The notes beneath the pieces are model-generated. The model did no database searches. It was not told the origin of the DNA and was given only the letters and a program-made list of their open reading frames with translations. From Litchfieldella anticariensis FP35 = DSM 16096 (GTDB taxonomy: Bacteria; Pseudomonadota; Gammaproteobacteria; Pseudomonadales; Halomonadaceae), in contig NZ_KE332391.1 of NCBI RefSeq assembly GCF_000409775.1, forward strand, positions 492,369 through 556,368: a stretch of DNA of 64,000 nt, in the 5' to 3' direction. Position 1 is the stretch's first letter; each line of letters opens with the position of its first letter. Position numbers and translations under genes: made by a program. Shown one piece after another: positions 10,261 to 27,829 of this stretch.

Positions 10261-13200
10261 TTAGCCGTGCGTCTTGTTATCGTCCTTGCGGATTTGCGAC
10301 ACGCGTTCGGTGATTCCCGACCAGGCGGGTTCCCCGGGTGCGAAACGGGCCCGGAGATACTCGACCAGAGTCGTCACCTGCGAGTCGCTGAAGCTGTCGG
10401 CGAAACCCGGCATCTCGCCGATACCGGGAACGCTGGTGGCGTGCACGCCGCCCAGAATCGACTGGATGACGTTGTCGGGGCGCTCGCTATACAGGTTGGT
10501 ATTGAGTGCCAGTGACACCTTGGCCTGAGTGAACGATGGCAGGCCGGTGTCGACATGGCAGGAGGCGCAGGCGCCATCGAAGAGACGCTCGCCAGCTTCC
10601 AGGCCAGCAGGACTCGTTGCCGCCCTGGCCACTAGCTGTTGTGCCTCGACGCGAACATCGTCGGCATCGCTTGCCGGCGCGTTCATCTGGGCCGCCACAT
10701 AATGGGCGATGGCACGCACATCGGACTCCGGAAGCTCACCAAGCCCGGCCACCACCGGTGCCATTGGCCCCGATGCCACGCCATGCAGTTCGGACTCGCC
10801 ACCGCGCAGGTACTGGTATAGCGACTCCTCGCTCCAGGGAATCGGCGAGCGGGACAGGGTATTGAGAGGCGGCGCCTCCCACCCCTCCACCAAGGCTCCG
10901 GCCAGGTAGCGCTCACCTCCCTGCTCGGCGCCCAAGGCATTGCGCGGCGAGTGGCAGGCACTGCAATGCCCCAGTCCCTCGGCGAGATAAGCGCCGCGAT
11001 TGTACAGATCGCTTTGGGACGGATCGGGCTGGAAAGGGCTAGCATCGTGATACAGCGCGTTCCAGCCGGCCAACAGCGCACGCACGTTGAACGGAAACGA
11101 CAGCTCGTTGGCCGGAGGCTGTGCGCTGACCGCGGGTTGCGCCATCAGGTAGGCGTAGAGCGACTGCATGTCAGCGTCGCTGATCTTGGCGAAGGCCGTA
11201 TAGGGAAAGGCCGGATACAGGTGCCGACCATCGCGGCTGATACCGTGACGCATGGCTCGCTCGAAGGCAGCATAGGACCAGTTGCCGATGCCGGTTGCCT
11301 CGTCAGGCGTGATGTTGGTGCTATAGAGCATGCCGAAGGGCGTATCGAAGGCTCTGCCACCAGCATTGTCGATACCGCCTTCGGCGGTATGGCAAACGGC
11401 GCAGTCGCCCGCCTCGGCGACCAGCCGTCCCCGCTCGATAGTCTCGGCGGAATACAGATTGGCGGCAGGCCGGGCCACCGGGGCGATGGGAGACTTCCAG
11501 GGCCATAACATGGCAGCCGCTCCTGCCGTCGCCATCGCCGCCCCTGCCCACCAGCGCCAGCGCGGTAGACGTTGTTCAGTCGCCGCCTCGCTACCATTTG
11601 TCCCGCCTTCACCCTGCAAGGCCTGGCGTACCCGGCTGGCGGTAAAGGGGGGCTGGCGGAAACGCACACCGGTGGCATCGAAGAGCGCATTGGCGATCAC
11701 CGCGACACCGGGCGAGAGGTCTGTTTCATCGAGTGGCGACAAGGCTGATATCTGCTCGCCATCGCTGCTTTCCATTGAGGTGGGACGAGGCTCTCGGACA
11801 ATATTCCGAGCCTCGGCGACCAGCTCACGCCGACTCTGCTGCGTGGATGACGAATCGTCGTTGTCGCCACCCTTCTCTCCCCACTCATCAAAACCCGGCT
11901 CTTTGGCCAGCAATGGCCTAGCCACCCCCAGCACCCGCCGCTGCAATGCCTCCTGCAACTGCGCCGTATCGACCAACGGACCGGAGTCCTGACCGACGAC
12001 CAGACGGGTCAGGCGCACGTCGCCGGTAACCCGGTTGACGTCGATATCGACAACCCACGCCGAACGAACGCCTTCGTCGACACGACCATGCCGGTCGGGC
12101 AATTGTGCATAGGCGAAGCCGCGGCCACGGCGCACATCCGCCGTCGATCCCTCCTCGCTGGCCTTGGTCGGCCAGGACCATCCGGCGCGCCGGGTCACCG
12201 ACTTGATCAGATCCACACCGCGTAGGTCATCGAGGTGGCGCAGGCGCAAGGCCACGGGGTCCTGGCCGCTTTCCCGGGCTACCTCATCGAGGAAGGACTC
12301 CCGAGCAAAGCCATGTTGCCATTCAAGCGCACGACCATCGTCATGGCTTCCCCGCGCCTCACGGGGTGCCGCCAACCGCTGGTCGCGGAACACATAGGGA
12401 GAGAACGTCGGCGACGCCGGCTCACCGGCCGCGACATCGTCGTCGTGTCGGCGTGTTTCGAGCACACCGCTCAGCCATAGCGCCACCACCGGCGTATCGC
12501 AGCCGACAAGCTCCTGACGATTGCGATAGCGCTCGATCCCGCCCTGTGCATTCAGTTCGACACTGACGACGATGCGCTGGGCCTGGCCCAGGGCTTCGAC
12601 ATCGCGCGCATAGCTGGCGTCCAACCACACGGCGACCGGTCGTCCCACCGCCCTGGACAATAGCGCCGCATCGGCAGCGGCATCGTCGCCGCAGAGTCTC
12701 CCAATGCCGGATCCTGAAGCCACATCGTGCAGTTCTATGGCTTCCCCGGCCAGGCCGGTGAGCGACTTCAAGTCGCGCTCGAGCAGCGCCGGGGTCGTCG
12801 TTGGCGCCCAGATATCGAGCCGATCACGACCATGGTCGGCAACGACCCAGCCCGGCTCGTCGCTCCAGCGCATCCGGCTTGGCCAGCCATAGCGCCGTGT
12901 CAGATACCGACCTCGCGTTGCGTCCGCTTCGGCAGGGTTCTCACTCTGATGCGACGATTCCACTCGCAACGCCCGACCTTGCTGGGTGCCATTTTCCGCA
13001 ACATCCAATGGCAGCCACTCCAGGCACAAGCGCCGAGTCGCTTCGCGAGCCGCTTGCAGGCTGGTGGCCACGACACCCACGAAGTTGTCCTCGATCACGA
13101 CCTCGACCTGACCGGGCAACGTCGCGACGCTCTTGCGGTCGACCCCTTGCAGACGAGAGCAGACAAAAGTGCCGTCGTTCAGACGGTAGACGGGTGGGCG

Positions 13201-13287
13201 GATCACGACCCCAAAGCGCCCCTCGCCACCAAGCGGCTCGGGCCGCCGATCGATGCCGGCCGGACGACGAGACTCGAAACCGCTCAT
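10261..13287 (-). CDS. nicB: Nicotinate dehydrogenase-type cytochrome subunit with degenerate molybdenum domain (NicB-like)
   Basis: This 1008-residue protein has three parts. Residues 1 to about 565 resemble the later two thirds of a xanthine-dehydrogenase-type molybdenum domain. They lack the N-terminal cofactor segment and have PLDE where the separate subunit at 19368 has GVGE. A transmembrane anchor lies near 577-597. Three cytochrome c heme motifs follow: CAVCH 629-633, CSACH 775-779 and CASCH 907-911. The start overlaps the nicA stop (ATGA), so the shortened N-terminus is not an assembly accident. Pseudomonas NicB combines a full molybdenum domain with cytochromes in one chain. Here this chain most likely passes electrons from the hydroxylase to the respiratory chain. 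Whether its own domain binds molybdopterin is doubtful. Confidence 0.8.
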   Translation of the reverse strand: MSGFESRRPAGIDRRPEPLGGEGRFGVVIRPPVYRLNDGTFVCSRLQGVDRKSVATLPGQVEVVIEDNFVGVVATSLQAAREATRRLCLEWLPLDVAENGTQQGRALRVESSHQSENPAEADATRGRYLTRRYGWPSRMRWSDEPGWVVADHGRDRLDIWAPTTTPALLERDLKSLTGLAGEAIELHDVASGSGIGRLCGDDAAADAALLSRAVGRPVAVWLDASYARDVEALGQAQRIVVSVELNAQGGIERYRNRQELVGCDTPVVALWLSGVLETRRHDDDVAAGEPASPTFSPYVFRDQRLAAPREARGSHDDGRALEWQHGFARESFLDEVARESGQDPVALRLRHLDDLRGVDLIKSVTRRAGWSWPTKASEEGSTADVRRGRGFAYAQLPDRHGRVDEGVRSAWVVDIDVNRVTGDVRLTRLVVGQDSGPLVDTAQLQEALQRRVLGVARPLLAKEPGFDEWGEKGGDNDDSSSTQQSRRELVAEARNIVREPRPTSMESSDGEQISALSPLDETDLSPGVAVIANALFDATGVRFRQPPFTASRVRQALQGEGGTNGSEAATEQRLPRWRWWAGAAMATAGAAAMLWPWKSPIAPVARPAANLYSAETIERGRLVAEAGDCAVCHTAEGGIDNAGGRAFDTPFGMLYSTNITPDEATGIGNWSYAAFERAMRHGISRDGRHLYPAFPYTAFAKISDADMQSLYAYLMAQPAVSAQPPANELSFPFNVRALLAGWNALYHDASPFQPDPSQSDLYNRGAYLAEGLGHCSACHSPRNALGAEQGGERYLAGALVEGWEAPPLNTLSRSPIPWSEESLYQYLRGGESELHGVASGPMAPVVAGLGELPESDVRAIAHYVAAQMNAPASDADDVRVEAQQLVARAATSPAGLEAGERLFDGACASCHVDTGLPSFTQAKVSLALNTNLYSERPDNVIQSILGGVHATSVPGIGEMPGFADSFSDSQVTTLVEYLRARFAPGEPAWSGITERVSQIRKDDNKTHG

Positions 13288-13766
13288 GCGCTTTCCTCCT
13301 CGTCACCATAACCGGCGGCCCGATAGGCGGCCTCGAGGATCTCGACATGCGTGCCGCAGCGGCACAGGTTGTGCTCGAGAACGGCCCGAATCGACTCTTT
13401 GGAGGGGTGAGGGTAGCGGTTGAGCAAAGCACGCACGCTCATGATCATGCCATTAAGGCAATAACCGCACTGCGCCGCCTGTTCTTCGATGAAGGCGACT
13501 TGCACCGGGTCCAGCCCTTCACCCGTTGCCAACCCTTCGAGCGTCGTCACCTCATGATCAACAACGGCCGCCACCGGCAGCACGCAGGCGCGTGCCGCCA
13601 GGCCGTCGACCAGCACGGTGCAGGCACCGCACTCGCCAAGGCCGCAACCGTACTTGGGGCCATTCAACCCCAGGTCGTTGCGCAGCACGTATAACAGGGG
13701 CGTCTCCGGCGCCACCGCCATGCGGTGCAACTGCCGATTGACGGTCAAGATCAGCGATTGTGTCAT
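13284..13766 (-). CDS. nicA: NicA, 2Fe-2S subunit of nicotinate dehydrogenase
   Basis: This 160-residue protein has a plant-type 2Fe-2S cluster in the N-terminal half (GCGLGECGACTVLVDG, then CVLP) and a second 2Fe-2S cluster in the C-terminal helical half (CGYCLNGMIM and CRCGTHVEI). This is the standard small subunit of molybdenum hydroxylases. It moves electrons from the molybdenum centre to the cytochrome subunit during conversion of nicotinate to 6-hydroxynicotinate. No clear ribosome site precedes the ATG; instead there is an AACAACAA stretch about 15 bases upstream and a hairpin behind the nicX stop. It is coupled to the cytochrome subunit by ATGA. Confidence 0.9.
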   Translation of the reverse strand: MTQSLILTVNRQLHRMAVAPETPLLYVLRNDLGLNGPKYGCGLGECGACTVLVDGLAARACVLPVAAVVDHEVTTLEGLATGEGLDPVQVAFIEEQAAQCGYCLNGMIMSVRALLNRYPHPSKESIRAVLEHNLCRCGTHVEILEAAYRAAGYGDEEESA

Positions 13767-13793
13767 GGGGATTCGATCGTTGTTGTTGGCTTT

Positions 13794-13811
13794 CGCTCCC
13801 CAATGGGAGCG
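13794..13811. other. Hairpin between nicX and nicA
   Basis: A perfect 7-bp stem (13794-13800 with 13805-13811, loop CAAT) lies three bases after the nicX stop. There is no T run on either strand, so it may be an mRNA stability or processing element rather than a terminator. Confidence 0.5.
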
Positions 13812-13813
13812 GG

Positions 13814-14872
13814 TCAGGTCTCGATACGCGACGCCTCTGGCGCCACCACGTCTCCCTCTTCCACCACCGCCATGTCATCCAGGTAGACCGAACAATGCCG
13901 CATGGGAATATCCATGTGGCACGGCGTGTTGCGCGGCCCGCCTACTTCTGTGTTGGGGCCGGTGGAGAACAGGAAATTACCGTAGAAGGCACGCGCATCC
14001 ATGCCAATGGCGTCGTTCTTGTCATGCAAGCCCAGGGCTGTCCATTGTGCACGGGGCTGCAGCCCCCAGCCGATATGCGAAATGGCATACACATCGGGAT
14101 CCTTGAAGTGAGCCATGTAATCGCGCAGGTACTCGGCATCGAAACCGCCATGGATACGACGGATGAATCCCTCCTCGATCTCCAGCGTCACCGGCTTGTC
14201 GCGCACGTATGTCTTGAAGGGCAACAGGATATCGCCGACATCGAGCACCAACTTGCCCTCGGCGCTACCCTCGTTGGGCCACGAAAACAGAAAACCGCTC
14301 GGCCAGTGGTCCCAACGCCCCGGCTCATCGGCAAAACCGTACTCGGTCACCACCGGATATTGTCCCAACCTGGCGCGGAAGTCAGTCCCCGCTGCCGATG
14401 TCACCCTGAAGGTCTCGGCCGCTTCGAAGGGCTGACGCGCCGCCTCGACCCGTCGCTTGTCCTCCAGGCTCGGCAGCATTCGCGCCAGCATCTCGGGCGG
14501 CTCCACGGCCAGCAGGATGCGGGTGCCGGACTTGAGAATCGCCTCCTGCTCCGGCGAATGCAGCAGCATCATGGTATCGACCACCAGATCGGCTGCCATC
14601 AATGCCTGCTGCGCCGCTGGATGGCCAGTGAGGGCGGTGTGGCCGACATAGGCCGTCAGGTCGTTGCCCATGGCGGTGCGGTGATTGAAGGCCGGCAGCT
14701 CGACGGCATAGGCCTTGGCTCCTAGCCGGTACGACGCCTCCATGGCGGCCGTGACGATGAACGGGTTGGAGTAGTGGCTCTTGAGCACCGCGACACTCTG
14801 GGTCTCGTCCACCCGTGACAGCTTCAACACGTGCTCGAAGTGCTGGGTCAATTCGCTCTGACTGACTGGCAT
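13814..14872 (-). CDS. nicX: 2,5-dihydroxypyridine 5,6-dioxygenase (NicX)
   Basis: This 352-residue Fe(II) dioxygenase opens the ring of 2,5-dihydroxypyridine to N-formylmaleamate. The metal ligands described for Pseudomonas NicX (His265, His318 and Asp320) correspond here to His266, His319 and Asp321, the last two in CHMDIPMRH. Overall length matches the family. ATG 14872 has AAGGTG five bases before it. It is the first gene of the leftward arm, 47 bases before nicA, and its promoter region holds a candidate NicR site. There are no oddities. Confidence 0.95.
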   Translation of the reverse strand: MPVSQSELTQHFEHVLKLSRVDETQSVAVLKSHYSNPFIVTAAMEASYRLGAKAYAVELPAFNHRTAMGNDLTAYVGHTALTGHPAAQQALMAADLVVDTMMLLHSPEQEAILKSGTRILLAVEPPEMLARMLPSLEDKRRVEAARQPFEAAETFRVTSAAGTDFRARLGQYPVVTEYGFADEPGRWDHWPSGFLFSWPNEGSAEGKLVLDVGDILLPFKTYVRDKPVTLEIEEGFIRRIHGGFDAEYLRDYMAHFKDPDVYAISHIGWGLQPRAQWTALGLHDKNDAIGMDARAFYGNFLFSTGPNTEVGGPRNTPCHMDIPMRHCSVYLDDMAVVEEGDVVAPEASRIET

Positions 14873-14932
14873 CTTGTCACCTTTTCTTCCCGTCCCGCAC
14901 CAGCAGGGTGCAGGTCCTCTTTGACTTGCAAT

Positions 14933-14952
14933 TTATGGTGCACACACCTCTT
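14933..14952. promoter_or_regulatory. Candidate NicR site upstream of nicX
   Basis: This stretch matches the perfect palindrome at 19287-19306 in 12 of 20 positions, including TTAT, GTG and ACAC. It begins 61 bases before the nicX start and lies downstream of a possible -10, where a repressor would block transcription. The assignment to NicR is inference from position and similarity. Confidence 0.45.
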
Positions 14953-14969
14953 ACTTGATATGTCTACAA

Positions 14970-14999
14970 GGTATAGCACCCTTTCCCAAGGACTTGCAA
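14970..14999 (-). promoter_or_regulatory. Possible nicX promoter
   Basis: On the minus strand TTGCAA (14994-14999) and TATACC (14970-14975) are 18 bases apart, about 100 bases before the nicX start. The rest of the 341-base nicX-nicC gap holds only this, the two candidate NicR sites and the nicC promoter. Confidence 0.4.
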
Positions 15000-15105
15000 G
15001 AACGAAAACAATCTTGTGAAAACACCTATAGCCCCAGTATTAGTCGCGATCTTCCGTATTTTCAAGCTGGACACCCTCATACACCGCATAGATCAAAATC
15101 AGTGC

Positions 15106-15138
15106 TTGACCCTTTTTAAAATGGTGTATACGTTGTTT
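15106..15138 (+). promoter_or_regulatory. Possible nicC promoter with overlapping NicR-like site
   Basis: TTGACC at 15106-15111 is a good -35. The -10 is uncertain (TATACG at 15127 with 15-base spacing, or TACGTT at 15129 with 17). The segment 15119-15138 shares GTGTATAC and 12 of 20 positions with the palindrome at 19287-19306 and would cover the -10, as expected for MarR-type repression. Confidence 0.45.
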
Positions 15139-15168
15139 TTACGCAATAGACACGCTATCCAGGCGTGA

Positions 15169-17210
<2,042 letters not shown>

Positions 17211-17224
17211 GGGAGTACTGTGAC

Positions 17225-17977
17225 ATGACCAAGACCTACCGTATCGGGCAAATCGTGCCCAGCTCGAACGTCACCATGGAGACCGAAATTCCCGCCATGC
17301 TGACGGCGCGGCAACAAATCCGCCCCGAACGCTTCACCTTCCACTCCAGCCGCATGCGTATGAAGACCGTGCGCAAGGAAGAACTGGCGGCGATGGATGC
17401 CGAATCGGATCGTTGCGCCCTGGAGCTCTCCGACGCTGCCGTGGATGTGATGGGCTATGCCTGCCTGGTAGCAATCATGTCGATGGGGCCTGGTTACCAT
17501 CGCGAATCGCAACAACGCCTGCGCCAGCGCACCCAGGAAAATGGCAAGGATACGCCGGTGGTTTCCAGCGCCGGCGCCCTGGTCGATGCGCTCCAGGTAA
17601 TCGGCGCCAAACGCGTGGTGGTCGTGGCGCCCTACATGAAACCGCTGACCGAGCTGGTGGTGGACTATATCCGCCAGGAAGGCATCGAGGTGCTCGACTA
17701 TCGCGCCCTCGAGATCCCCGACAACCTTGAGGTGGCACGTCACGACCCGGCCAAACTGCCGGAGATCGTTTCAACCCTCGACCTCGCCGAGGCCGATGCC
17801 ATCGTACTTTCCGCCTGCGTGCAGATGCCGTCGTTGCCCGCCGTGGCCAAGGTCGAAGCATTGGCCGGCAAGCCGGTGATCAGCGCCGCCATTGCTACCA
17901 CCTACGCCATGCTCAAGTCGCTGGAGTTGGAGCCGGTGGTACCGGGCGCCGGTGCACTGCTGTCGGGCGCCTACTGA
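17225..17977 (+). CDS. nicE: Maleate cis-trans isomerase (NicE)
   Basis: This 250-residue enzyme of the Asp/Glu racemase superfamily converts maleate to fumarate, the last step of nicotinate breakdown. The two catalytic cysteines appear as Cys80 (GYACLVA) and Cys198 (LSACVQMPS), at the family's usual spacing. The length equals that of typical NicE. ATG 17225 has GGGAG ten bases before it; a weaker upstream ATG at 17207 would overlap nicD. nicF follows 11 bases after the stop, although NicF acts before NicE in the pathway. Confidence 0.93.
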   Translation: MTKTYRIGQIVPSSNVTMETEIPAMLTARQQIRPERFTFHSSRMRMKTVRKEELAAMDAESDRCALELSDAAVDVMGYACLVAIMSMGPGYHRESQQRLRQRTQENGKDTPVVSSAGALVDALQVIGAKRVVVVAPYMKPLTELVVDYIRQEGIEVLDYRALEIPDNLEVARHDPAKLPEIVSTLDLAEADAIVLSACVQMPSLPAVAKVEALAGKPVISAAIATTYAMLKSLELEPVVPGAGALLSGAY

Positions 17978-17988
17978 GGAGAGCCACC

Positions 17989-18645
17989 ATGTCGAATCGA
18001 GAGGATAGTTCGGCCGCCGACAACTACAAGGGCGTGTGGGACAGCCGCATCGGCTTCGGCCAAAAAGCCGCCCTCGTGGTGGTGGACTTCATGCAGGGCT
18101 ATACCACTGAGGACTCCCCCCTCTTCGCCCCCGGCGTGGTAGAAGCGGTGGCACAGTCACCGACCCTGCTGAACGCAGCCCGAGAGGCGGGTGCGCCAGT
18201 CCTTCATACCAATATCCGCTACCACGGACCCGATTATCTCGATGGTGGCGTATGGGTGAAGAAGGCGCCGGTGATGAAAGCCATGGTGGCGGGCAATCCC
18301 TACGCCGAGTTCTGCCCCGAAGTGGTGCCCCAAGGCGATGAACTGGTGATTACCAAGCAATACGCCAGCGCCTTCTTCGGCACCTCGCTGGCACCAACGC
18401 TGATGGCCCTGGGCGTCGATACCCTGGTGCTCGCCGGCTGTTCCACCAGCGGCTGCATTCGCGCCACCGCGGTCGATGGTATGCAACATGGTTTTCGTGT
18501 GATGGTCGTGCGCGAGTGCGTGGGAGACCGCCACCCAACCCCGCATGAAGCCAATCTGTTCGACATCGACAGCAAGTACGGCGACGTAATCAGCGTCGAG
18601 GACGCCGTAGGGTATTTCACCGCCAAGCGTCATGCCCGGGACTGA
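17989..18645 (+). CDS. nicF: Maleamate amidohydrolase (NicF)
   Basis: This 218-residue isochorismatase-family amidase hydrolyses maleamate to maleate and ammonia. The catalytic triad is Asp33 (VVVDFMQGY), Lys123 (VITKQYASAF) and Cys156 (STSGCIRAT), the arrangement known from N-carbamoylsarcosine amidase. GAGGAG lies seven bases before the start. It is the last gene of nicCDEF and runs towards nicR, with a hairpin in the 47-base gap between them. Confidence 0.93.
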   Translation: MSNREDSSAADNYKGVWDSRIGFGQKAALVVVDFMQGYTTEDSPLFAPGVVEAVAQSPTLLNAAREAGAPVLHTNIRYHGPDYLDGGVWVKKAPVMKAMVAGNPYAEFCPEVVPQGDELVITKQYASAFFGTSLAPTLMALGVDTLVLAGCSTSGCIRATAVDGMQHGFRVMVVRECVGDRHPTPHEANLFDIDSKYGDVISVEDAVGYFTAKRHARD

Positions 18646-18660
18646 CGGAGCCAGAGCTTG

Positions 18661-18688
18661 GGAAGCGTATCTCCAAGGGAGCGCTTCC
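18661..18688. terminator. Hairpin between convergent nicF and nicR
   Basis: GGAAGCG (18661-18667) pairs with CGCTTCC (18682-18688), with an inner CTCC/GGAG pair. There is no clear T run. Its position between two convergent genes suggests it ends both transcripts. Confidence 0.55.
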
Positions 18689-18692
18689 TCCA

Positions 18693-19187
18693 TCAGCCTC
18701 CCGGTTCGCCTTGCTCGTTCATCTTGGCCAACAGATGCAGCAGGGCGACACGCTCGGCGGGGTTGAGGTTACCCATGGTCAGATCGGTGACGTGCTGGGC
18801 GCGCGGCACCATCTCCTCGACCAGATTCTCGCCGTGCGGCGTGATGCTGACCATGACCTTGCGCTGGTCAGCGGGGTCGGTGGAAAGCATGATCCAGTCG
18901 CGTGCCTTGAGCCGCTTGATGACACCACGAATAGTAGCGGGATCAATGGCCGTGGCATTGACGATCTCGGTCAGCGAGCTAGGGCCATGTTCCATGACCG
19001 TGCACAGGGTCACGAACTGGATCGCGGTCAGTTGCTTGTCGCAACTGTGACGCTGAAAGATCGCGGTATGGCGCTGATACGCCTTGCGCAGCAGGTGACC
19101 AACCTGCTCCGAGAAGTCGTAGCCTTGCTCGGAAGGCGTGTGTCGCTCACTTTCTTTCGATTCGTGATGTTGGGTTTCGGATTGCAT
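18693..19187 (-). CDS. nicR: MarR-family regulator of the nic genes (NicR)
   Basis: This 164-residue winged-helix protein has a MarR-type body, with a helix-turn-helix around SLTEIVNATAIDPATIRGVIKRL and a wing at DPADQRKVMVSITPHG. NicR proteins repress nic genes until 6-hydroxynicotinate binds. I chose ATG 19187, which has AGGA six bases upstream; ATGs up to 19238 remain possible. It lies between the nicCDEF arm and the separate molybdenum subunit gene, facing the latter across a 20-bp perfect palindrome 100 bases from its own start, so autoregulation is likely. Confidence 0.87.
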   Translation of the reverse strand: MQSETQHHESKESERHTPSEQGYDFSEQVGHLLRKAYQRHTAIFQRHSCDKQLTAIQFVTLCTVMEHGPSSLTEIVNATAIDPATIRGVIKRLKARDWIMLSTDPADQRKVMVSITPHGENLVEEMVPRAQHVTDLTMGNLNPAERVALLHLLAKMNEQGEPGG

Positions 19188-19286
19188 CGACGATCCTGTC
19201 CATTCCATAGGGCGCATGATCACGGCATGACGAGGCATTTCGACACGCCATGACAGGGTGGAAAACCCTCGGCTACTGCGGCATAT

Positions 19287-19306
19287 TTATAGTGTATACA
19301 CTATAA
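19287..19306. promoter_or_regulatory. Perfect 20-bp palindrome, candidate NicR operator
   Basis: TTATAGTGTATACACTATAA is an exact palindrome placed between divergent nicR and the molybdenum subunit gene, 62 bases before the latter's start. Its AT-rich ends could double as -10 elements in both directions. Two weaker relatives lie in the nicX-nicC gap. MarR proteins bind palindromes of this size; assignment to NicR is inference. Confidence 0.7.
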
Positions 19307-19367
19307 CCGCTTTGCCGCCGGAGACAACATCCGCTTGCCTCGAGAATCAATCATCAGGAGCTCTTCG

Positions 19368-21650
19368 ATGGCGCGTTCTTCCCTGCCCCCGCGGCACGCC
19401 CTGCTCAACGACCCCGACATACTGGTGGTCTATCGCGATCCGGTGGTGCCCCCCAAGCCTGCGCCGGGGCAACCCGGCACGCATTCCGATTTCGTTCCCA
19501 CGGAGCCGGAGCTGTTCGTCGCCGTACTCGACGACGGGCATGTCATGGCCTTCAATGGCCACGTCGACCTGGGCACCGGGATTCGCACCGCGCTGGCCCA
19601 GATCGTCGCCGAAGAGTTGGATGTGCGTCTCGAGGACATCAGTATGGTGCTCGGCAACTCCACCGAGGTGCCGAACCAGGGCCCCACGATCGCCAGCGCC
19701 ACCATCCAGATCACCGCCGAGCCCTTGCGACGCGCAGCGGCCCAGGCCCGCCACCACCTGCTATCTCTCGCAGCCGCACACTTCAGTGTTGTCATCGAGG
19801 ACCTGCGCAGCGAAGACGGCCGAATCCAACTCCATGGCGATCCACAGCAGGCCATCGGTTACGGTGCGCTACTGAAAGGGCAACGTCATGCCCTGAAACT
19901 GGCCGATGACGTGGCCCTGAAACCCGTTGGCGACTACCGTATCGTCGGTCAGAGAGCGGCGCGGGTCGACATCCCCGCCAAGGTCAGTGGCGAACTCACC
20001 TTCGTTCACGATCTGCGTCTGCCCGGAATGCTGCATGGCCGAGTGGTTCGACCGCCTTATGTCGGCCACGACCGTGGCAATTTCGTCGGCCACAGCCTGA
20101 TGAATGTGGATGAGGCCTCGGTAGCCGATATCCCAGGCCTGATCGAGGTGGTGGTCATCGGCGACTTCGTCGGCGTGGTGGCCGAGCGCGAGGAAATGGC
20201 AGTCGAAGCCGCCCGACGCTTGAAAGTCACCTGGCGCCCCATCACCGAACTCCCCGATCTGGATGACCTGGAACAGGCATTGCGCGAGCTGCCCGCCCAG
20301 CATCGCCCGCTGCTCGAGGAAGGCGACGTCGACGCCGCACTTGCGCAGGCCGGCCAGCGGCTGCGGCGCACCTATGTATGGCCCTACCAGTTGCATGGCT
20401 CGATCGGCCCCTCATGCTCAGTGGCCGACTACCGCGACGATGGCCTCATGGTTTGGTCGGGCACCCAGAACCCCCACAGCCTGCGCGCCGACCTGGCCAA
20501 GCTACTGGAACTCGACGAGAGCAGGATCGACATTCAGCGCATGGAAGTCTCCGGCTGCTATGGCCGCAATTGCGCCGATGACGTGGGCGCCGATGCCGCC
20601 TTGCTATCGCGTGCCGTCGGCCGCCCGGTGCGGGTACAGCTCAGTCGCGAACAGGAGCATGGCTGGGAACCCAAGGGCGCGGGACAGCTCATGGACGTCG
20701 ACGGCGGGCTGAATGCCGACGGCAGCCCGGCCGGCTATGACTTCGTGAACCGCTACCCGTCCAACAACGCCCCGACCCTGGCGCTGCTGCTGACCGGTGC
20801 CACGGCACCGAGCGACGTGCCATTCGAGATGGGCGACCGTACCGCCGTGCCACCCTATCGTTATCCACACCGGCGTATCGCCTGTGACGATGTGCCGACC
20901 CTGGTGCGTGCCGCCTGGCTACGTGGTGTCTCCGCCCTGCCCAACACCTTCGCCCATGAAAGCTATATCGACGAACTGGCGTGGATGGCCGGCATGGACC
21001 CCGTCAAGTATCGCCTTCGTCACTTGAGCGACGAGCGTGCCCAGGCCCTGGTCGCTGCCGTGGCGCAGCGCGCCGAATGGATGCCTCGCCTCGCGGCCAG
21101 TGACGAACAGGAAAACGACGGTTGGCGATGGGGGCGCGGATTTGCCTACGCCCAATACGTGCACAGCAAGTTCCCCGGCTTCGGCGCCGCCCTGGCGGCC
21201 TGGGCCGTCTTCCTCAAGGTGCATCTCGAGACGGGGCGTATCGTCATCGAACGTCTGGTCGTCGGCCAGGATGCCGGTTTGATAATCAATCCAGCAGGAG
21301 TCCGCCACCAGGTGCACGGCAACGTGATCCAGACCTTGAGCCGCACCTTGAAGGAAAGTGTCGCGTTCGAAGACGGCCTGCCCGTCAGCCGCGAATGGGG
21401 CGGCTATCCGATCCTGCGCTTCTCGGAACTGCCCGAGATCGACGTACTGCTCCTGGACCGCTCCGAGGAGCCACCGCTGGGTGTCGGCGAGTCGACCTCC
21501 CTGCCCGGCGCCCCGGCGATCGCCAACGCCTTGTTCGATGCCACCGGGGTGCGGTTCTATCGACCGCCGTTTACCCCGGAAGTGGTCCGTAAGAGGTTGC
21601 ACGCCTCTCGGCAAGCAAGGGCCGGCACGGCATCAACCCCGCCTTCGTGA
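19368..21650 (+). CDS. Molybdenum-binding subunit of nicotinate dehydrogenase (separate NicB-type chain)
   Basis: This 760-residue protein has a complete xanthine-dehydrogenase-type molybdenum domain of the isoquinoline oxidoreductase beta kind. An early cofactor segment (HVDLGTGIRTALAQIVAEEL, about residue 65) is followed by SGCYGRNCADD, then RAAWLRGVSALPNTFAHES, and finally GVGE at 705-708 with Glu708 as the expected catalytic base. It has no heme motif and no clear signal peptide. ATG 19368 has AGGAG seven bases before it. It probably supplies the active site missing from the cytochrome fusion at 10261-13287; both end in a nearly identical PGxxxIANALFDATGVRF block. Alternatively it is a second hydroxylase for another heterocycle. 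Confidence 0.82.
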   Translation: MARSSLPPRHALLNDPDILVVYRDPVVPPKPAPGQPGTHSDFVPTEPELFVAVLDDGHVMAFNGHVDLGTGIRTALAQIVAEELDVRLEDISMVLGNSTEVPNQGPTIASATIQITAEPLRRAAAQARHHLLSLAAAHFSVVIEDLRSEDGRIQLHGDPQQAIGYGALLKGQRHALKLADDVALKPVGDYRIVGQRAARVDIPAKVSGELTFVHDLRLPGMLHGRVVRPPYVGHDRGNFVGHSLMNVDEASVADIPGLIEVVVIGDFVGVVAEREEMAVEAARRLKVTWRPITELPDLDDLEQALRELPAQHRPLLEEGDVDAALAQAGQRLRRTYVWPYQLHGSIGPSCSVADYRDDGLMVWSGTQNPHSLRADLAKLLELDESRIDIQRMEVSGCYGRNCADDVGADAALLSRAVGRPVRVQLSREQEHGWEPKGAGQLMDVDGGLNADGSPAGYDFVNRYPSNNAPTLALLLTGATAPSDVPFEMGDRTAVPPYRYPHRRIACDDVPTLVRAAWLRGVSALPNTFAHESYIDELAWMAGMDPVKYRLRHLSDERAQALVAAVAQRAEWMPRLAASDEQENDGWRWGRGFAYAQYVHSKFPGFGAALAAWAVFLKVHLETGRIVIERLVVGQDAGLIINPAGVRHQVHGNVIQTLSRTLKESVAFEDGLPVSREWGGYPILRFSELPEIDVLLLDRSEEPPLGVGESTSLPGAPAIANALFDATGVRFYRPPFTPEVVRKRLHASRQARAGTASTPPS

Positions 21651-22574: not shown

Positions 22575-23921
22575 TCACGCTTTCTCGGCCAGTGCCGAGC
22601 CCGGCGATAAATCGCAGGATGTCGTCTCCTGCCACCCCAATGACGCCAGCACCTCTTTCACCCCTGTGCGCGGGTCATAATTCCATATCCAGTCGAAACG
22701 GTGCTTCAGGTTATCGGCCAGTTTCTCTTCATCGCTGCCGATACCCTCGCCGCAGTACTCGTAGATCTCACCGGCCTCACGCGAGGTCGCCTGCACCCGA
22801 CAGGCGCGTGGGCGACGACAGCGTTCAAACGCTTCCAACACCCGCTCGGCATTGTCGCGAGTACAGCGCTCATCCGTCAGCAGGGACGCCAAGACATACG
22901 CATCTTCCAAGGCCTGACCCGCCCCGGCGCCCTGGTGGGGCAACATGGCATGGGCGGCATCGCCGATGAGAAGCACTCGATCGCGCACATGGCAGGGCAA
23001 CTCGGGCAACTCATGCAACGCCCAACGGGTCGGCTCGGGAATGCAGCGCAGGATGGCCTTCGACGCCTCGCCCCAATCCGCAAAGTCTTCCAGCATTTCG
23101 GCCTGCGATACCCCGACCACCCAGGGTTCGTCCGCCGGCAGTTGCGGCGCAGCGGTGCTGCGATCCGAGACGAAGGCGACGACGTTGATCAGCGTGGACT
23201 GCTTTACCGGGAAGGTCAGGATGTGTTTTTGCGGGCCGAGATACATCTGGGGCACGGTGGCAAGGCGTTCCTCGACGCCCGCCTCGGTGAAGGCACGCTT
23301 CAGTTCCTCGACCGGCACGAGACCGCGATAAGCCTTGGTGCCGCTCCAGCGAGGCTCTATCGTACCGTCGCTCTCCTCCGGCAACACATGCCGGCGCACC
23401 GCGGACTTGATCCCATCGCAGCCGACCAGGATGTCACACTGAAAGGTAGTGCCATCCTCGAAGTCGACCGTGACACCCTCTGGGCCCTGGCGTACCGCGG
23501 CACAACGCTTGCCGAAATGGGCAATGCCATCGGGCAGGCAGTCGACCAAGGCATCGAGGAAGTCGGCGCGGTGGACGGAGGATTGCCCACACCCCGGTGC
23601 AATGCTCGCGGCCAAATAGGCTTCGTCGTGCCAACGCCGCCACTCGAACCAGACATCCTCGAAAGGAGCCGGCGACTTATCGGCAATCCGGGTGTAGGGC
23701 TCCTCCAAACCCAGCAGGGAAATGCTCCGCACCGCATTGGGGCCGAAGGATACGCCAGCACCGATTTCGGAGAACTTCGCCGCCGCTTCGAAGAGGTTGA
23801 CCTCAAGACTCTTGTCACGGGAAAGTCCGATCGCCAGGGCCACGCCACCTATTCCGCCACCGACAATGCCGATGGAAAGACGCTTGCCTTTAGGGGCTTC
23901 TTTTGTGCTCGATTTCTGCAT
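22575..23921 (-). CDS. Salicylate 1-monooxygenase-like flavoprotein
   Basis: This 448-residue class A FAD monooxygenase has GGGIGG at 21-26, the middle motif VGCDGIKSAVRRHVLP and the GD motif LLIGDAAHAMLPHQGAGAGQALEDA, as in NahG-type salicylate hydroxylases. Those enzymes use NADH and O2 to turn salicylate into catechol and CO2. Catechol is exactly what CatA, encoded in the same supercluster, consumes, and the gene follows a benE carrier and an aromatic-type ABC importer on the same strand. AGGAG precedes the start by about nine bases. Other hydroxybenzoate substrates cannot be excluded. Confidence 0.82.
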   Translation of the reverse strand: MQKSSTKEAPKGKRLSIGIVGGGIGGVALAIGLSRDKSLEVNLFEAAAKFSEIGAGVSFGPNAVRSISLLGLEEPYTRIADKSPAPFEDVWFEWRRWHDEAYLAASIAPGCGQSSVHRADFLDALVDCLPDGIAHFGKRCAAVRQGPEGVTVDFEDGTTFQCDILVGCDGIKSAVRRHVLPEESDGTIEPRWSGTKAYRGLVPVEELKRAFTEAGVEERLATVPQMYLGPQKHILTFPVKQSTLINVVAFVSDRSTAAPQLPADEPWVVGVSQAEMLEDFADWGEASKAILRCIPEPTRWALHELPELPCHVRDRVLLIGDAAHAMLPHQGAGAGQALEDAYVLASLLTDERCTRDNAERVLEAFERCRRPRACRVQATSREAGEIYEYCGEGIGSDEEKLADNLKHRFDWIWNYDPRTGVKEVLASLGWQETTSCDLSPGSALAEKA

Positions 23922-24002
23922 GAGCGCCGCTCCTGCTGGGAATGATTCTGATTATGTGACCGAAGCTATGAGGTTGCTCTTGGCAACGCGTTGATGGAAA
24001 GC

Positions 24003-25208
24003 TCAACGTCCACTTCCGGCTGCCTCCGTTGTTTCGCGCCGCAGGGCGAAACGACGATGCAGCGTGTTATAGGCAATCGCGCCGATAACGACTCCCCAAA
24101 AAGCCGACCCCAGCCCCAGGAAGCTGACACCGGAGGCCGTGGCAATGAAGGTGATGACAGAGGCCTCCAAGTGGTCCTTGTGGGCGGCGAAGGCACTGAC
24201 ACTGCTGGCAATGGCGCCGATCAGCGCCAAACCCGCCAGCACCGCGACGAATTCGCCTGGCAACGAGGTGAACAGCGCCACGATGGTGCCGGCGAAGCAG
24301 GCGCCCACCAGGTAGAAGACACCATTGGCCACCCCGGCCACGTAACGTTTGCCCGGATCCTCGTGGGCCTCCTTGCTGGTGCAGATCGCGGCGGTGATCG
24401 CCGCCACTACGGTAGTGATGCCTCCGAAGAAGGCTGTGACGAAGGAGGTCAGACTGGTCACGGTGACGATCGGCTTGGCCGGCGTGTCGTAGCCGGAGCT
24501 GCGCAGGATTGCCATGCCCGGCAGGAACTGTCCTGTGAGGCTGACCAGCACCAGCGGAATGGCCAGACTGAGGGTGGCATTCCAGGTCCATTCGGGATGA
24601 ATGAAACGTGGCTCGGCCAGTTGCAGCGTCACGCCCTTCAGACTGGCGCCCTCCAGCCATACGGCCAGGCCGACCCCGACGATCAGCAGCAGCACTAGGC
24701 AATAGCGCGGGCTCAGGCGCTTGAAGAGCAGATAGGCCAGGATCATGCCGATGGCCAGTGCCGGTACCGATTCGAGCGATACGAACACCCCAACACCGAA
24801 CTGGAACAGGATTCCCGCCATCATGGCACTGGCGATCCCAGGAGGGATCATCTGGATGATGCGGTCGAAGGAACCGGTGACGCCGATCACGAAAATGATC
24901 ACCGCGGCGGTAAGATAGGCGCCCACCGCCTCGCCCAGCGACAGGTCGGGAAACAGTGTGACCAGTAGCGCCGTGCCCGGCGCCGACCAGGCCGTGACCA
25001 CCGGCACCTTGAGCCACAGGCTGAGCAGGATGCCCGAGACGGCAGCACCCAGCGAGATCGCCCAGACCCAGGAGGTCATCATGGCACTCGAGATCTCGGC
25101 GCTATGGGCAGCCTGGAAGAAGATCGCCAAGGGCCCGGAATAGGACACCAGCACCGCTACGAAGCCAGCGGTGATCGCAGGTATCGACCAGTCCTTGTGG
25201 AGTCGCAT
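24003..25208 (-). CDS. benE: BenE-family benzoate transporter
   Basis: This 401-residue inner membrane protein has about twelve hydrophobic spans and BenE features such as the opening WSIPAITAGFVAVLVSYSGP and the later AAITAAICTSKEAHEDP segment. BenE carriers take up benzoate with protons. It lies just after the ABC importer genes and 81 bases before the salicylate hydroxylase-like gene, on the same strand. A second, more divergent BenE-like carrier is encoded behind benD. Confidence 0.88.
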   Translation of the reverse strand: MRLHKDWSIPAITAGFVAVLVSYSGPLAIFFQAAHSAEISSAMMTSWVWAISLGAAVSGILLSLWLKVPVVTAWSAPGTALLVTLFPDLSLGEAVGAYLTAAVIIFVIGVTGSFDRIIQMIPPGIASAMMAGILFQFGVGVFVSLESVPALAIGMILAYLLFKRLSPRYCLVLLLIVGVGLAVWLEGASLKGVTLQLAEPRFIHPEWTWNATLSLAIPLVLVSLTGQFLPGMAILRSSGYDTPAKPIVTVTSLTSFVTAFFGGITTVVAAITAAICTSKEAHEDPGKRYVAGVANGVFYLVGACFAGTIVALFTSLPGEFVAVLAGLALIGAIASSVSAFAAHKDHLEASVITFIATASGVSFLGLGSAFWGVVIGAIAYNTLHRRFALRRETTEAAGSGR

Positions 25209-25241
25209 AAGTGGCTCCCTGTAGAGTGGTGAAATGAAAGG

Positions 25242-25973
25242 TCAGGCAACGCCAAGGTGCATATCGAGAATGGAAGGATCATCCTTGAGGCCTTGAGCGC
25301 CCCCGCTGTAGACCACCTCGCCTTTGACCAGCAGGATGTGCTTTTCCGCCACCTCGAGTAGGTTGTCGATGTTCTTGTCGACGATGATGCTGGCAATGCC
25401 GGTGGCCTTGATCTCGTGAATGATCTTCCAGATCTCATCACGGATCAGAGGCGCCAGGCCCTCGGTGGCCTCATCGAGGATGATCAGGTCGGGATTGGTG
25501 GTCAGTGCGCGACCGATGGAGAGCATCTGCTGCTCGCCTCCGGAGAGGAAGGAGCCATCATGGTTGATGCGCTGGCCGAGGCGCGGGAAAGTGTCCAGCA
25601 CCCGCTCCAGGGTCCAGGGCGTCTCGCCCCGCTCGTTGGGCCGGGCGGCCATCACCAGGTGCTCGCGCACGCTGATGCCGGGGAAGATACCCCGTCCTTC
25701 CGGTACATAACCGATGCCCTGGCGGATCAGTTGCCAGGGGCGACGCTTGGCAGTGGACTCTCCCTTGATGCGGACCTCACCTTCGCGTGGCGGCACGAAG
25801 CCGAGGATCGACTTCAAGGTGGTGGTCTTGCCCATGCCGTTGCGCCCCAGCAGACTCAGCGTCTCGCCGGGCATCAGGGTCAAGTCGACCCCGTGCAGGA
25901 CATGGCTCTCGCCATAGAAGGTGTGCAACCCCTTGGCATCGATCAACGGGGTGAGGTGCGCTGCTGCTGTCAT
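25242..25973 (-). CDS. ABC transporter ATP-binding protein (LivF type)
   Basis: This 243-residue ATPase has Walker A GRNGMGKTT at 43-51, the signature LSGGEQQ and Walker B LIILDEATEG. The LivF type pairs with LivG in branched-chain-amino-acid-like importers, a family also used for aromatic acids. Its start overlaps the LivG-type stop by ATGA. Context (ben/cat genes and a CatR-type promoter at the head of the operon) argues for benzoate, salicylate or a related aromatic acid rather than amino acids. Confidence 0.9.
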   Translation of the reverse strand: MTAAAHLTPLIDAKGLHTFYGESHVLHGVDLTLMPGETLSLLGRNGMGKTTTLKSILGFVPPREGEVRIKGESTAKRRPWQLIRQGIGYVPEGRGIFPGISVREHLVMAARPNERGETPWTLERVLDTFPRLGQRINHDGSFLSGGEQQMLSIGRALTTNPDLIILDEATEGLAPLIRDEIWKIIHEIKATGIASIIVDKNIDNLLEVAEKHILLVKGEVVYSGGAQGLKDDPSILDMHLGVA

Positions 25974-26737
25974 GCCATTACCTCCTCGTGGTGCCGTCCG
26001 AGATAGACGTCACGCACCTTTTCACTGCAGCGGATCTGGTCGGTAGGACCGCTCTCCAGCACACAGCCATCCACCATCACGGTGATGCGGTCGGCCAGGC
26101 GGAAGACGCTGTCCATATCGTGCTCGATCAGCACCAGGGTATAACGGTCGCTCAGGCTCGCGAGTAGCTCGGTGACCTGGGCGGTCTCCTCACGCCCCAT
26201 TCCTGCCATGGGTTCGTCGAGCAGCATCAGCGAGGGGGCTGTCGCCAGTACCATGGCGATCTGCAGTTGGCGCTGTTCGCCATAGCTCATGTCCGCGGCA
26301 GGCGTGTAGGCCCGATGCACCAGCTGGCAGGTCTCCAGCACCTCGAGGGCCCGCTCGTTGACTTGCCGGGCCCGCTGGCGCGAACGCCAACTGGCGAAGA
26401 CGCCGCCCATGTGGATGCGCGCCGCCAACTGGCAGTTCTGCAGGCAGTTGAGCCGCGGGAAGATGTTGGTCTTCTGATGGCTGCGGCCGATACCCATGTG
26501 TGCGATCTGCCGCACACTCTTGCCCTGGATGGGCTTGCCACGATAGCGCACCTCGCCAGCCGAGGGGGGAATCTCCCCCGAGAGCAGGTTGATCAGGGTG
26601 CTCTTGCCGGCACCATTGGGCCCCAGGATGGCATGAATCTCATTGGGCTCGACATCGAAGTCGACCTCGTTGACCGCTACCAGGCCACCGAAACGGCGGG
26701 TCAGGCCATGAGTCGACAGGGTCGGTGCTTGGCTCAT
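25970..26737 (-). CDS. ABC transporter ATP-binding protein (LivG type)
   Basis: This 255-residue ATPase has Walker A GPNGAGKS at 39-46, the signature MSYGEQRQL and Walker B LMLLDEPMAG. It carries the LivG-type insertion between Walker A and signature. Four-base overlaps with both neighbours show tight coupling in the operon order SBP, LivH, LivM, LivG, LivF. Confidence 0.92.
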   Translation of the reverse strand: MSQAPTLSTHGLTRRFGGLVAVNEVDFDVEPNEIHAILGPNGAGKSTLINLLSGEIPPSAGEVRYRGKPIQGKSVRQIAHMGIGRSHQKTNIFPRLNCLQNCQLAARIHMGGVFASWRSRQRARQVNERALEVLETCQLVHRAYTPAADMSYGEQRQLQIAMVLATAPSLMLLDEPMAGMGREETAQVTELLASLSDRYTLVLIEHDMDSVFRLADRITVMVDGCVLESGPTDQIRCSEKVRDVYLGRHHEEVMA

Positions 26738-27819
26738 GACTCGGCCCTCCCTTTCGGCATGACGGCTTGGTGAGGGTGGGCGTCGGTCCGGGGCTTGCGG
26801 CCCCCCTTCGCCAACCGACGCAGCAGCGAGGCCTTCAGCAGCTCCGCCTTGCCTGGCGGTGCGGTAATCAGGCCGGCGATCCCGCGAGGCAGCACCAGTA
26901 CCGCGACGATGATGGTCAGGCCCATCAGGATCGGCCAGTGGGTGGTGAGATGTTCGAAGACGAACAGCAGGATCTCGTAGGCAAAGGCGCCGAGGATCGG
27001 GCCGAAGATGGTCCCCATCCCCCCCAGGATCAGCATTATCAGCACCTCACCGGAGGTATGCCAGCCAAGCTGGGCGGGGTTGGCGAAACCGTACTGCATG
27101 GCGGCCAGCATGCCAGCGATGCCTGCCATGATCCCGGCGATGACGAAGGCGATCAGCTTGTAGCTGCCGGTGGCATAGCCCAGCGCCTGCATGCGGTGCT
27201 CGTTGTCATGGATACCGTCGAGCACCTGGCCGAAATAGGAGCGGGTCAGCCAGCGCAGGAACAGGTAGCCGGCCACCAGCATACCCAGGCAGAAGTAGAA
27301 GAAGGTACGCGGATCGTCGAGGTTGAGCAGCGCCGTCTCGCCCACCGTCAGGCTCGGCCGGAACATGATGAAGATGCCGTCCGTGCTGCCGGTGAAGGAC
27401 GAGGTACTGATCAGGTAGAAAAGCATCTGCCCGAAGGCCAGGGTGGTCATGATGAAGAAGATGCCTTTGGTGCGAATCACCAGCACCCCCACCACCAACG
27501 CCGCCACGGCGGCCACCGCCGCGACCAGCGGCAACATCCACCACAGCGAGGCCGGGCTGAAGTCGGGGCTGGCCAGCGCCAGAGTGTAGGCGCCAAGGCC
27601 GAAGAACAGCGCATGCCCCAGGCTCACCAGGCCGACGATCCCGACCAGCAGGTCGAGGCTCATGGCGAACAGCGCCAGGATCAGCATCAGGGTGAGCTTT
27701 TCGAGGATGAAGTCGGACTGGCTGCCGAACACGCTCGCGCCCCACAAGGGAAAGGTCGCGACGATCGCCGTCAGCGCCAGCATGATGAAAGTGACGCGCT
27801 TGGGATAACTGTGCAACAT
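26734..27819 (-). CDS. ABC transporter permease (LivM type)
   Basis: This 361-residue permease has about ten hydrophobic spans and the family coupling region near HRMQALGYATGSYKL. I chose ATG 27819, which has GAGGAGG five bases upstream and lies ten bases after the LivH-type stop; the nine extra upstream codons would overlap that gene. The C-terminus extends about 30 charged residues beyond the last span. Confidence 0.9.
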   Translation of the reverse strand: MLHSYPKRVTFIMLALTAIVATFPLWGASVFGSQSDFILEKLTLMLILALFAMSLDLLVGIVGLVSLGHALFFGLGAYTLALASPDFSPASLWWMLPLVAAVAAVAALVVGVLVIRTKGIFFIMTTLAFGQMLFYLISTSSFTGSTDGIFIMFRPSLTVGETALLNLDDPRTFFYFCLGMLVAGYLFLRWLTRSYFGQVLDGIHDNEHRMQALGYATGSYKLIAFVIAGIMAGIAGMLAAMQYGFANPAQLGWHTSGEVLIMLILGGMGTIFGPILGAFAYEILLFVFEHLTTHWPILMGLTIIVAVLVLPRGIAGLITAPPGKAELLKASLLRRLAKGGRKPRTDAHPHQAVMPKGRAES

Positions 27820-27829
27820 GACTGCCTCC

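Follow-up and report, generated by a model that had tools for sequence, protein, structure and literature searches.

The question raised by the locus

Why should the cytochrome chain of a nicotinate dehydrogenase carry a molybdenum-type domain that has lost most near-universal residues of its cofactor region? The question is posed by a nic gene cluster of a Halomonadaceae bacterium (Litchfieldella anticariensis FP35, genome 5.07 Mb), located within the window, a 64,000-nucleotide stretch of contig NZ_KE332391.1. Three of its genes, nicB2, nicA and nicB1, encode the putative subunits of the enzyme:

10261..13287, minus strand: NicB2, cytochrome chain, 1008 amino acids, with a pseudo-molybdenum domain, a probable membrane helix and three haem c motifs
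13284..13766, minus strand: NicA, [2Fe-2S] subunit, with Fer2 and Fer2_2 matches and an ATGA overlap with nicB2
19368..21650, plus strand: NicB1, molybdenum chain, 760 amino acids, haem-free, no Tat (twin-arginine translocation)-like signal found

With a probability of about 0.7, these genes specify a three-subunit nicotinate dehydrogenase in which NicB1 is catalytic and NicB2 provides the membrane outlet, its pseudo-domain serving for docking after the duplication of a fused NicB. The presumed reaction, nicotinate 6-hydroxylation, is suggested by the surrounding nic cluster and by related systems.

NicB1 is a complete molybdenum chain

NicB1 is a complete molybdenum chain of the xanthine oxidase (XO) family, with the fold and the family-wide conserved positions present. 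Its completeness follows from the alignment of the large chain of the Gluconobacter oxydans membrane aldehyde dehydrogenase (PDB 8gy3), the best-scoring solved relative of both NicB1 and NicB2, which spans NicB1 residues 44-745. MoCoBD_1 and MoCoBD_2 were both matched strongly and no CxxCH motif was found in the 760 residues, in agreement with the initial annotation, which had described this chain as retaining the cofactor motifs and devoid of haem. The gene is preceded by AGGAG upstream of its start at 19368. Two segments serve as landmarks:

19566..19601, plus strand: DLGTGIRTALAQ of NicB1, without counterpart in NicB2
21480..21491, plus strand: GVGE of NicB1

The GVGE segment is presumably the catalytic-glutamate motif; its E708 lines up with GE in E. 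coli PaoC. NicB1 shares 54-65% identity with the molybdenum part of fused NicB proteins, and its sequence suggests that it is the sole catalytic chain of the enzyme. NicB1-like molybdenum chains with Tat-like signals and separate cytochromes were found at two further loci (L066 and L067; 57% and 52% identity to NicB1), and these are the closest non-fused outgroup to NicB1.

Losses and retained positions in the NicB2 pseudo-domain

Compared with a molybdenum chain, NicB2 is missing the initial ~220 residues and keeps the C-terminal core. A domain search yielded a weak MoCoBD_1 match (one stretch) in addition to cytochrome c domains, with no match to MoCoBD_2 at E<=0.001. The chain is composed of the following parts:

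11599..13287, minus strand: pseudo-molybdenum domain, NicB2 residues 1-563, with a predicted XO-family fold and most of the near-universal cofactor-region residues lost
11722..11922, minus strand: low-confidence stretch, probably disordered, residues 456-522
11725..11736, minus strand: PLDE, counterpart of GVGE
11497..11553, minus strand: hydrophobic helix WWAGAAMATAGAAAMLWPW, probable single membrane anchor, judged by hydropathy and by the same position in relatives
11389..11403, minus strand: haem c motif 1, CAVCH
10951..10965, minus strand: haem c motif 2, CSACH
10555..10569, minus strand: haem c motif 3, CASCH

The missing N-terminus does not result from a wrongly called start codon, because the start of nicB2 is preceded by a ribosome-binding site, GAGGAGGA, and overlaps the nicA stop codon as ATGA; moreover, the DLGTG block is empty in 19/19 NicB2 rows of the alignment described below. 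Decay by sequencing errors was likewise ruled out, since the three CxxCH motifs lie in one frame in 45 of 46 NicB2 open reading frames (ORFs). In the exception (locus L101, genome G006), NicB2 is split into three ORFs while NicB1 and the remaining cluster are retained, reflecting either gene decay or an assembly error.

To compare the chains, 20 NicB1, 26 fused NicB, 11 other related chains and 19 NicB2 were aligned, the rows being hand-picked from 46 NicB2 plus the window, 48 NicB1, 82 fused and 15 other ORFs; positions are given in NicB1 numbering. Conservation in >=95% of both NicB1 and fused NicB was seen at 204 positions. At 44 of them, less than half of the NicB2 rows were filled, 137 were filled in >=80% of NicB2, and the remaining 23 were filled in between. 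Among the 137, 21 were kept in >=90% of NicB2, 49 in 50-90% and 67 in less than half (41 in <=10%). Mean identity of NicB2 at filled conserved positions was lowest at 501-525 (0.11; LRG) and 638-710 (0.15; up to GVGE), reached 0.34-0.51 over 220-500 and 0.61 at 601-637, and was highest in the core, with 0.75 at 526-600 and 0.87 at 711-745, the latter value being computed at 10 positions near-invariant in NicB1 and fused NicB. The contrast between 711-745 and 638-710 bears out the C-terminal block that had been noted as common to both chains.

When the other chains were included, 81 positions remained conserved, and the DLGTG block is among those absent from NicB2. Losses comprised H343 (0/19), Q367 (1/19), R519 (0/19), P642 (1/19), G651 (1/19), Y680 (0/19), G705 (1/19) and G707 (1/19). 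Retained in 19/19 rows were F528, D535, E536, D544, R549, W571, G589, G591, A721, A725, G727, R729 and P734. In the window, NicB2 is substituted at H343, Q367, G396, R427, R519, N641, P642, G651, Y680, G705, V706 and G707. Accordingly, the early cofactor segment was correctly reported as missing, DLGTGIRTALAQ having no counterpart in NicB2, and the LRG region as eroded, as shown by R519. The replacement of GVGE by PLDE was also found, with the nuance that the aligned E708 is still a glutamate in the window (as in just 6/19 NicB2 rows), while the two glycines of GVGE are each preserved in 1/19 rows.

Predicted fold

A model of the pseudo-domain, predicted from 23 alignment rows, reached a mean predicted local distance difference test score (pLDDT) of 74.2 and a predicted template modelling score (pTM) of 0.74, with residues 456-522 below a pLDDT of 50. 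The counterpart of this stretch in NicB1 extends from the second half of helix 642-662 through the region up to GVGE. Chain C of 8gy3 ranked first in a Foldseek search with this model, and superposition on it gave a Z score of 21.1 and a root-mean-square deviation (rmsd) of 6.7 over 411 residues (chain residues 225-770). For NicB1, modelled as a control (pLDDT 79.7, pTM 0.82), superposition on the same chain gave a Z score of 34.9 and an rmsd of 2.7 over 660 residues (chain residues 45-771). We read the NicB2 model as a predicted fold that is kept except for the part at the N-terminus and the stretch ahead of GVGE.

Distribution of split and fused NicB

NicB2 was recognised by its pseudo-domain (>60 bits), so that the cytochrome of a nic cluster without this domain would not count as NicB2. 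With the pseudo-domain as a query, matches were obtained in 41/201 genomes of the family (E<=1e-10), 16/390 of the order and 4/369 of the class (both E<=1e-20); NicB1 and other chains are among these matches, and the samples overlap. A whole Bordetella NicB2 query matched 15/399 genomes of its order at E<=1e-110, comprising NicB2, fused and separate cytochrome chains. NicB1 accompanied domain-bearing NicB2 in 52/52 distinct loci, made up of 44 (46 fetched less two duplicates), the window, six Burkholderiales loci and L117, which was counted even though its NicB2 is cut by the end of the stretch. In one Burkholderiales locus (L226), NicB1 fell immediately beyond the stretch and was picked up in a further search. 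Domain-bearing NicB2 thus comes with NicB1, a statement that concerns this form of the chain and not every nic cytochrome. Separate cytochrome chains were found outside nic clusters, beside NicA-like and Tat-type chains; the exceptions are the piece at L101 and L133, where a second set with a separate cytochrome stands beside a fused cluster.

Among the matches listed, NicB2 holders included Vreelandella maris, V. zhanjiangensis, V. venusta, Halomonas sp. JB37 and PA16-9, Bordetella sp. 02P26C-1, Advenella sp. FME57, Caballeronia insecticola, Burkholderia multivorans, B. stagnalis and B. arboris; the scan naming them used two cytochrome patterns, and the names are not frequencies.

Fused NicB was represented by 82 loci, including Pseudomonas, Serratia, Pantoea and Bradyrhizobium. 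A second chain scoring >300 bits to NicB1 was present in none of these 82 stretches and in none of six further ones (0/88 in total). When ten of the fused genomes were searched whole (E<=1e-60), a single match (41% identity) was obtained besides a second fused copy. NicC, NicD and NicX were all present in 27/82 fused stretches, so that not every fused NicB protein need act on nicotinate. Burkholderia sp. OK233 (L172/G939, L236) carries a split nic cluster with NicB1 and NicB2 and, elsewhere, a fused NicB. As NicA is the sole recognised neighbour of the latter, this arrangement suggests another substrate.

Origin of the split

The order of domains is common to NicB2 and fused NicB, and both of their parts are homologous. 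In addition, nicA lies directly beside nicB2 in 44/46 loci and beside fused nicB in 78/82. NicB2 is therefore likely to be the positional descendant of a fused NicB, with NicB1 as a copy without the cytochrome. NicB1 lies on the opposite strand from NicB2 in 46/46 loci; a search for cytochrome remnants behind nicB1, performed on 44 downstream stretches including the window, gave best hits of E 1.3 or worse. NicB1 formed one clade that includes the Bordetella and Burkholderia NicB1 proteins (support 99/94; 100% of 200 bootstrap trees). In the tree of the pseudo-domain, NicB2 formed one clade as well (99/100), on long branches and after 9 of the 11 other chains had been dropped as long branches. 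Placing the root of the split within fused NicB was tried and was not significant. There is good support for the initial proposal of a duplication with subsequent division of labour, namely this shared order and adjacency, the single NicB1 clade, the restriction of NicB2 to NicB1-bearing loci in the sample and the loss of most cofactor positions alongside a kept core.

Topology and proposed mechanism

Attachment of haem c takes place in the periplasm. Tat-like signals were detected in 0/82 fused NicB, in 0/47 NicB1 of split clusters and in 13/15 other molybdenum chains; of the 48 entries in the NicB1 set, the one with such a signal, at L200, was set aside as an additional chain of a different kind. 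As no Tat signal is seen in NicB1 and fused NicB, the part of the cytochrome chain that lies in the cytoplasm is probably the pseudo-domain. A hydrophobic helix before the first haem exceeded the hydropathy cut-off of 1.4 in 77/82 fused NicB and 12/46 NicB2 (medians in a 17-residue window of 1.94 and 1.51, respectively). For helices over the cut-off, positive charges were commoner before than after the helix in 65/77 fused NicB and 11/12 NicB2. From these sequence features, we infer that NicA, NicB1 and the pseudo-domain reside in the cytoplasm and the haems in the periplasm.

According to the mechanism proposed, NicB1 would bind the molybdenum cofactor and hydroxylate nicotinate in the cytoplasm, and electrons would pass from nicotinate to the molybdenum of NicB1, from there to the iron-sulphur clusters of NicA and on to a NicB2 haem. 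NicB2, as the membrane-anchored cytochrome chain, would hand them to the respiratory chain. Its first ~565 residues would go back to the molybdenum domain of a one-chain NicB ancestor and, in the cytoplasm, would dock NicA and NicB1 to the membrane. Retention of the pseudo-domain for docking these subunits to the membrane chain is thus the function we favour; it fits a maintained domain, a retained predicted fold and a probable location on the cytoplasmic side of the helix. Possible, and offered here tentatively, is a further scenario in which the catalytic side of fused NicB moved from the periplasm to the cytoplasm by loss of the Tat signal and fusion to the membrane anchor of the cytochrome. 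Following the duplication, the NicB2 pseudo-domain would have become a dedicated docking station in the cytoplasm, perhaps a pseudo-protomer of the usual molybdenum-chain dimer, that places the NicA clusters for transmembrane transfer to the periplasmic haem, and would represent a maintained pseudoenzyme domain of the XO family.

Selection, erosion and alternative explanations

Ratios of nonsynonymous to synonymous substitution rates (dN/dS) were calculated by the Nei-Gojobori method for 13 close pairs, among which pairs sharing rows are not independent. The pseudo-domain is under purifying selection, weaker than on its neighbours, with ratios of 0.13-0.40 in 13/13 pairs, compared to 0.06-0.17 for the cytochrome part and 0.07-0.19 for NicB1. 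The length of the part before the membrane helix was measured in 50 NicB2 ORFs (two loci counted twice). Four Burkholderia NicB2 had 362-396 residues, G1058 had 465 and four loci of family f43 had 469-477; the other 41 fell within 514-591. The shortest forms retain the blocks FARES..DELA..DPVALRL, RGRGFA, AW..D..TGDV and IANAL.DATGVRFR.PPF, and they lack most of the stretch preceding them. To call the domain decayed, as was done initially, is thus too strong, since purifying selection acts on it; erosion by lineage is nevertheless seen.

Several observations weigh against a docking domain derived from fused NicB. With respect to selection, dN/dS of the pseudo-domain exceeds that of the cytochrome part in 12/13 pairs and that of NicB1 in all 13, and in Burkholderia the domain has just ~360-400 residues, as a relic would also show. 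The Foldseek TM-score of the model against 8gy3_C is just 0.50, with an rmsd of 11.2, so that agreement is better for the single parts than for the way in which they are arranged. NicB2 retains some positions close to lost ones (G399 in 15/19, D635 in 15/19 and G637 in 17/19 rows), and the lost ones are presumed, from what holds in the XO family, to bind the cofactor or take part in catalysis. Concerning topology, the helix of NicB2 in the window falls below the 1.4 cut-off, and 6/46 NicB2 ORFs show a Tat-like hit (residue 23), close to where the part overlapping nicA ends. In the trees, finally, the cytochrome part requires 2 changes for NicB2 in the free tree (a single clade is not rejected, p 0.53), fused NicB may form one clade beside NicB1 (p 0.41), and NicB2 may be sister to NicB1 or lie outside NicB1 plus fused NicB (p 0.63 each).

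Among the alternatives, the one that survives best, while still unlikely, is that the pseudo-domain is a shrinking relic that lost its job after the duplication and remains only because it stands before the membrane helix of an essential cytochrome. The spread of the pre-helix part from ~360 to ~590 residues across the 50 ORFs and the ratios above those of NicB1 would be expected of such a relic. The ratios themselves are nonetheless far from 1, the thirteen structural core positions are invariant in 19/19 rows, the same blocks are kept even in the shortest forms, and stops split just 1/46 NicB2 (L101).

Somewhat less probable again is a role of the pseudo-domain in assembly rather than docking, in which it would hold NicA or apo-NicB1 during cofactor insertion. 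The position of nicA directly upstream of nicB2, with nicB1 on the other strand, would suit this idea; yet the adjacency of nicA is also seen with fused nicB and may reflect an inherited gene order only. That NicB1 acts on another substrate and NicB2 plus NicA form the nicotinate dehydrogenase, as the nicA/nicB2 overlap might indicate, is scarcely credible given the loss of most near-universal cofactor-region residues in NicB2, a NicB1 that is complete in sequence and predicted fold and closely similar to the molybdenum part of fused NicB, and the fact that NicB2 was never seen without NicB1.

Comparison with known systems

The split into NicA, NicB1 and NicB2 is itself already known in print: excerpts of two reports name tripartite enzymes for Bordetella, Burkholderia gladioli and Delftia (PMC10269826, PMC4572682). 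The window fits this type, with the same three gene names assigned within a nic cluster, a haem-free NicB1 and a NicB2 with three haem motifs, and the NicB2 of Bordetella sp. 02P26C-1 (L180, 996 amino acids) also carries the pseudo-domain. The excerpts make no mention of a degenerate molybdenum domain and call the Delftia NicB1 an aldehyde dehydrogenase (PMC10269826, PMC4572682). Nor was such a domain in NicB2 mentioned in the literature searched, whose scope did not extend to the original Bordetella and P. putida papers.

The one-chain NicA/NicB enzyme of the Pseudomonas type is likewise encoded in a nic cluster with a NicA-like subunit directly upstream, and its parts are arranged alike, the molybdenum part being followed by a membrane helix and then by three haem motifs. 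The difference lies in the duplication of the molybdenum part in the window, where one copy (NicB1) is haem-free and intact and the other (in NicB2) degenerate, and in the distribution of the molybdenum and cytochrome functions over these two chains instead of one catalytic chain. In 8gy3, the large molybdenum chain is colinear with NicB1 and the three-haem cytochrome chain resembles the C-terminus of NicB2. This 444-residue cytochrome chain, however, aligns from its residue 14 on (NicB2 586 on), which leaves no room for a molybdenum-like domain. In contrast to Tat-exported molybdenum dehydrogenases with a separate cytochrome, NicB1 of the window carries no Tat-like signal.

For nicotinate dehydrogenase, membrane binding and the involvement of a cytochrome have been described in a review (PMC10331938). 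The same review covers NdhS/NdhL/NdhM, a three-gene nicotinate dehydrogenase that is likewise composed of iron-sulphur, molybdenum and third subunits from separate genes; compared by description, its third subunit, of 46 kD and called a flavoprotein, is too small for this type of NicB2 (PMC10331938). The Eubacterium barkeri enzyme (PDB 3hrd) also hydroxylates nicotinate with a molybdenum part on two chains, and differs in having two molybdenum-binding chains plus a flavin subunit instead of an intact chain and a cytochrome-borne pseudo-domain (PMC10331938).

A conserved and selected XO-family pseudo-domain, ranging from ~590 to ~360 residues, asks why a catalytic domain persists after catalysis. 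Pseudoenzyme domains are known as scaffolds in other families, and NuoG of complex I, from the superfamily of the dimethyl sulfoxide (DMSO) reductase type, retains a degenerate molybdopterin-type domain as structure. For all NicB enzymes, the testable question arises how electrons leaving a molybdenum site that is probably cytoplasmic reach haem c in the periplasm. On the practical side, all three chains may be required when these hydroxylases are used in a heterologous host, and catalysis should not be assumed for a cytochrome chain annotated as molybdopterin-binding.

Remaining genes of the nic cluster

Between NicA and NicB1, the cluster continues with the following genes:

13814..14872, minus strand: NicX-like, 2,5-dihydroxypyridine dioxygenase, 74% identity to a Pantoea plasmid gene product annotated as 2,5-dihydroxypyridine 5,6-dioxygenase
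15214..16395, plus strand: NicC-like FAD monooxygenase
16386..17210, plus strand: NicD-like alpha/beta hydrolase
17207..17977, plus strand: NicE-like maleate isomerase, with a relative annotated as Asp/Glu racemase
17989..18645, plus strand: NicF-like maleamate amidohydrolase
18693..19238, minus strand: NicR-like MarR regulator

The nic gene names are based on similarity to named records and on the usual gene order of such clusters; when ten proteins of the nic region were compared with NCBIfam curated models, the cut-off was reached by BenE alone. A sodium:solute symporter gene (PF00474; 8481-10169, minus strand) lies directly behind nicB2 and is a candidate nicotinate transporter. A symporter was found beside nicB2 in 37/46 NicB2 loci, and a relative in 2/82 fused stretches. 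The adjoining region 22575-27846 contains genes for a second FAD monooxygenase, a BenE-type symporter and an ABC transporter, which perhaps belong to another aromatic pathway. In many relatives (e.g. L078-L087), a nicX-like gene behind the symporter shows 43-47% identity to nicX of the window, and at L058, L073, L076, L077, L088 and L101 a nicX-like gene next to nicA shows 74-98% identity; in relatives, nicX has perhaps been replaced by another copy.

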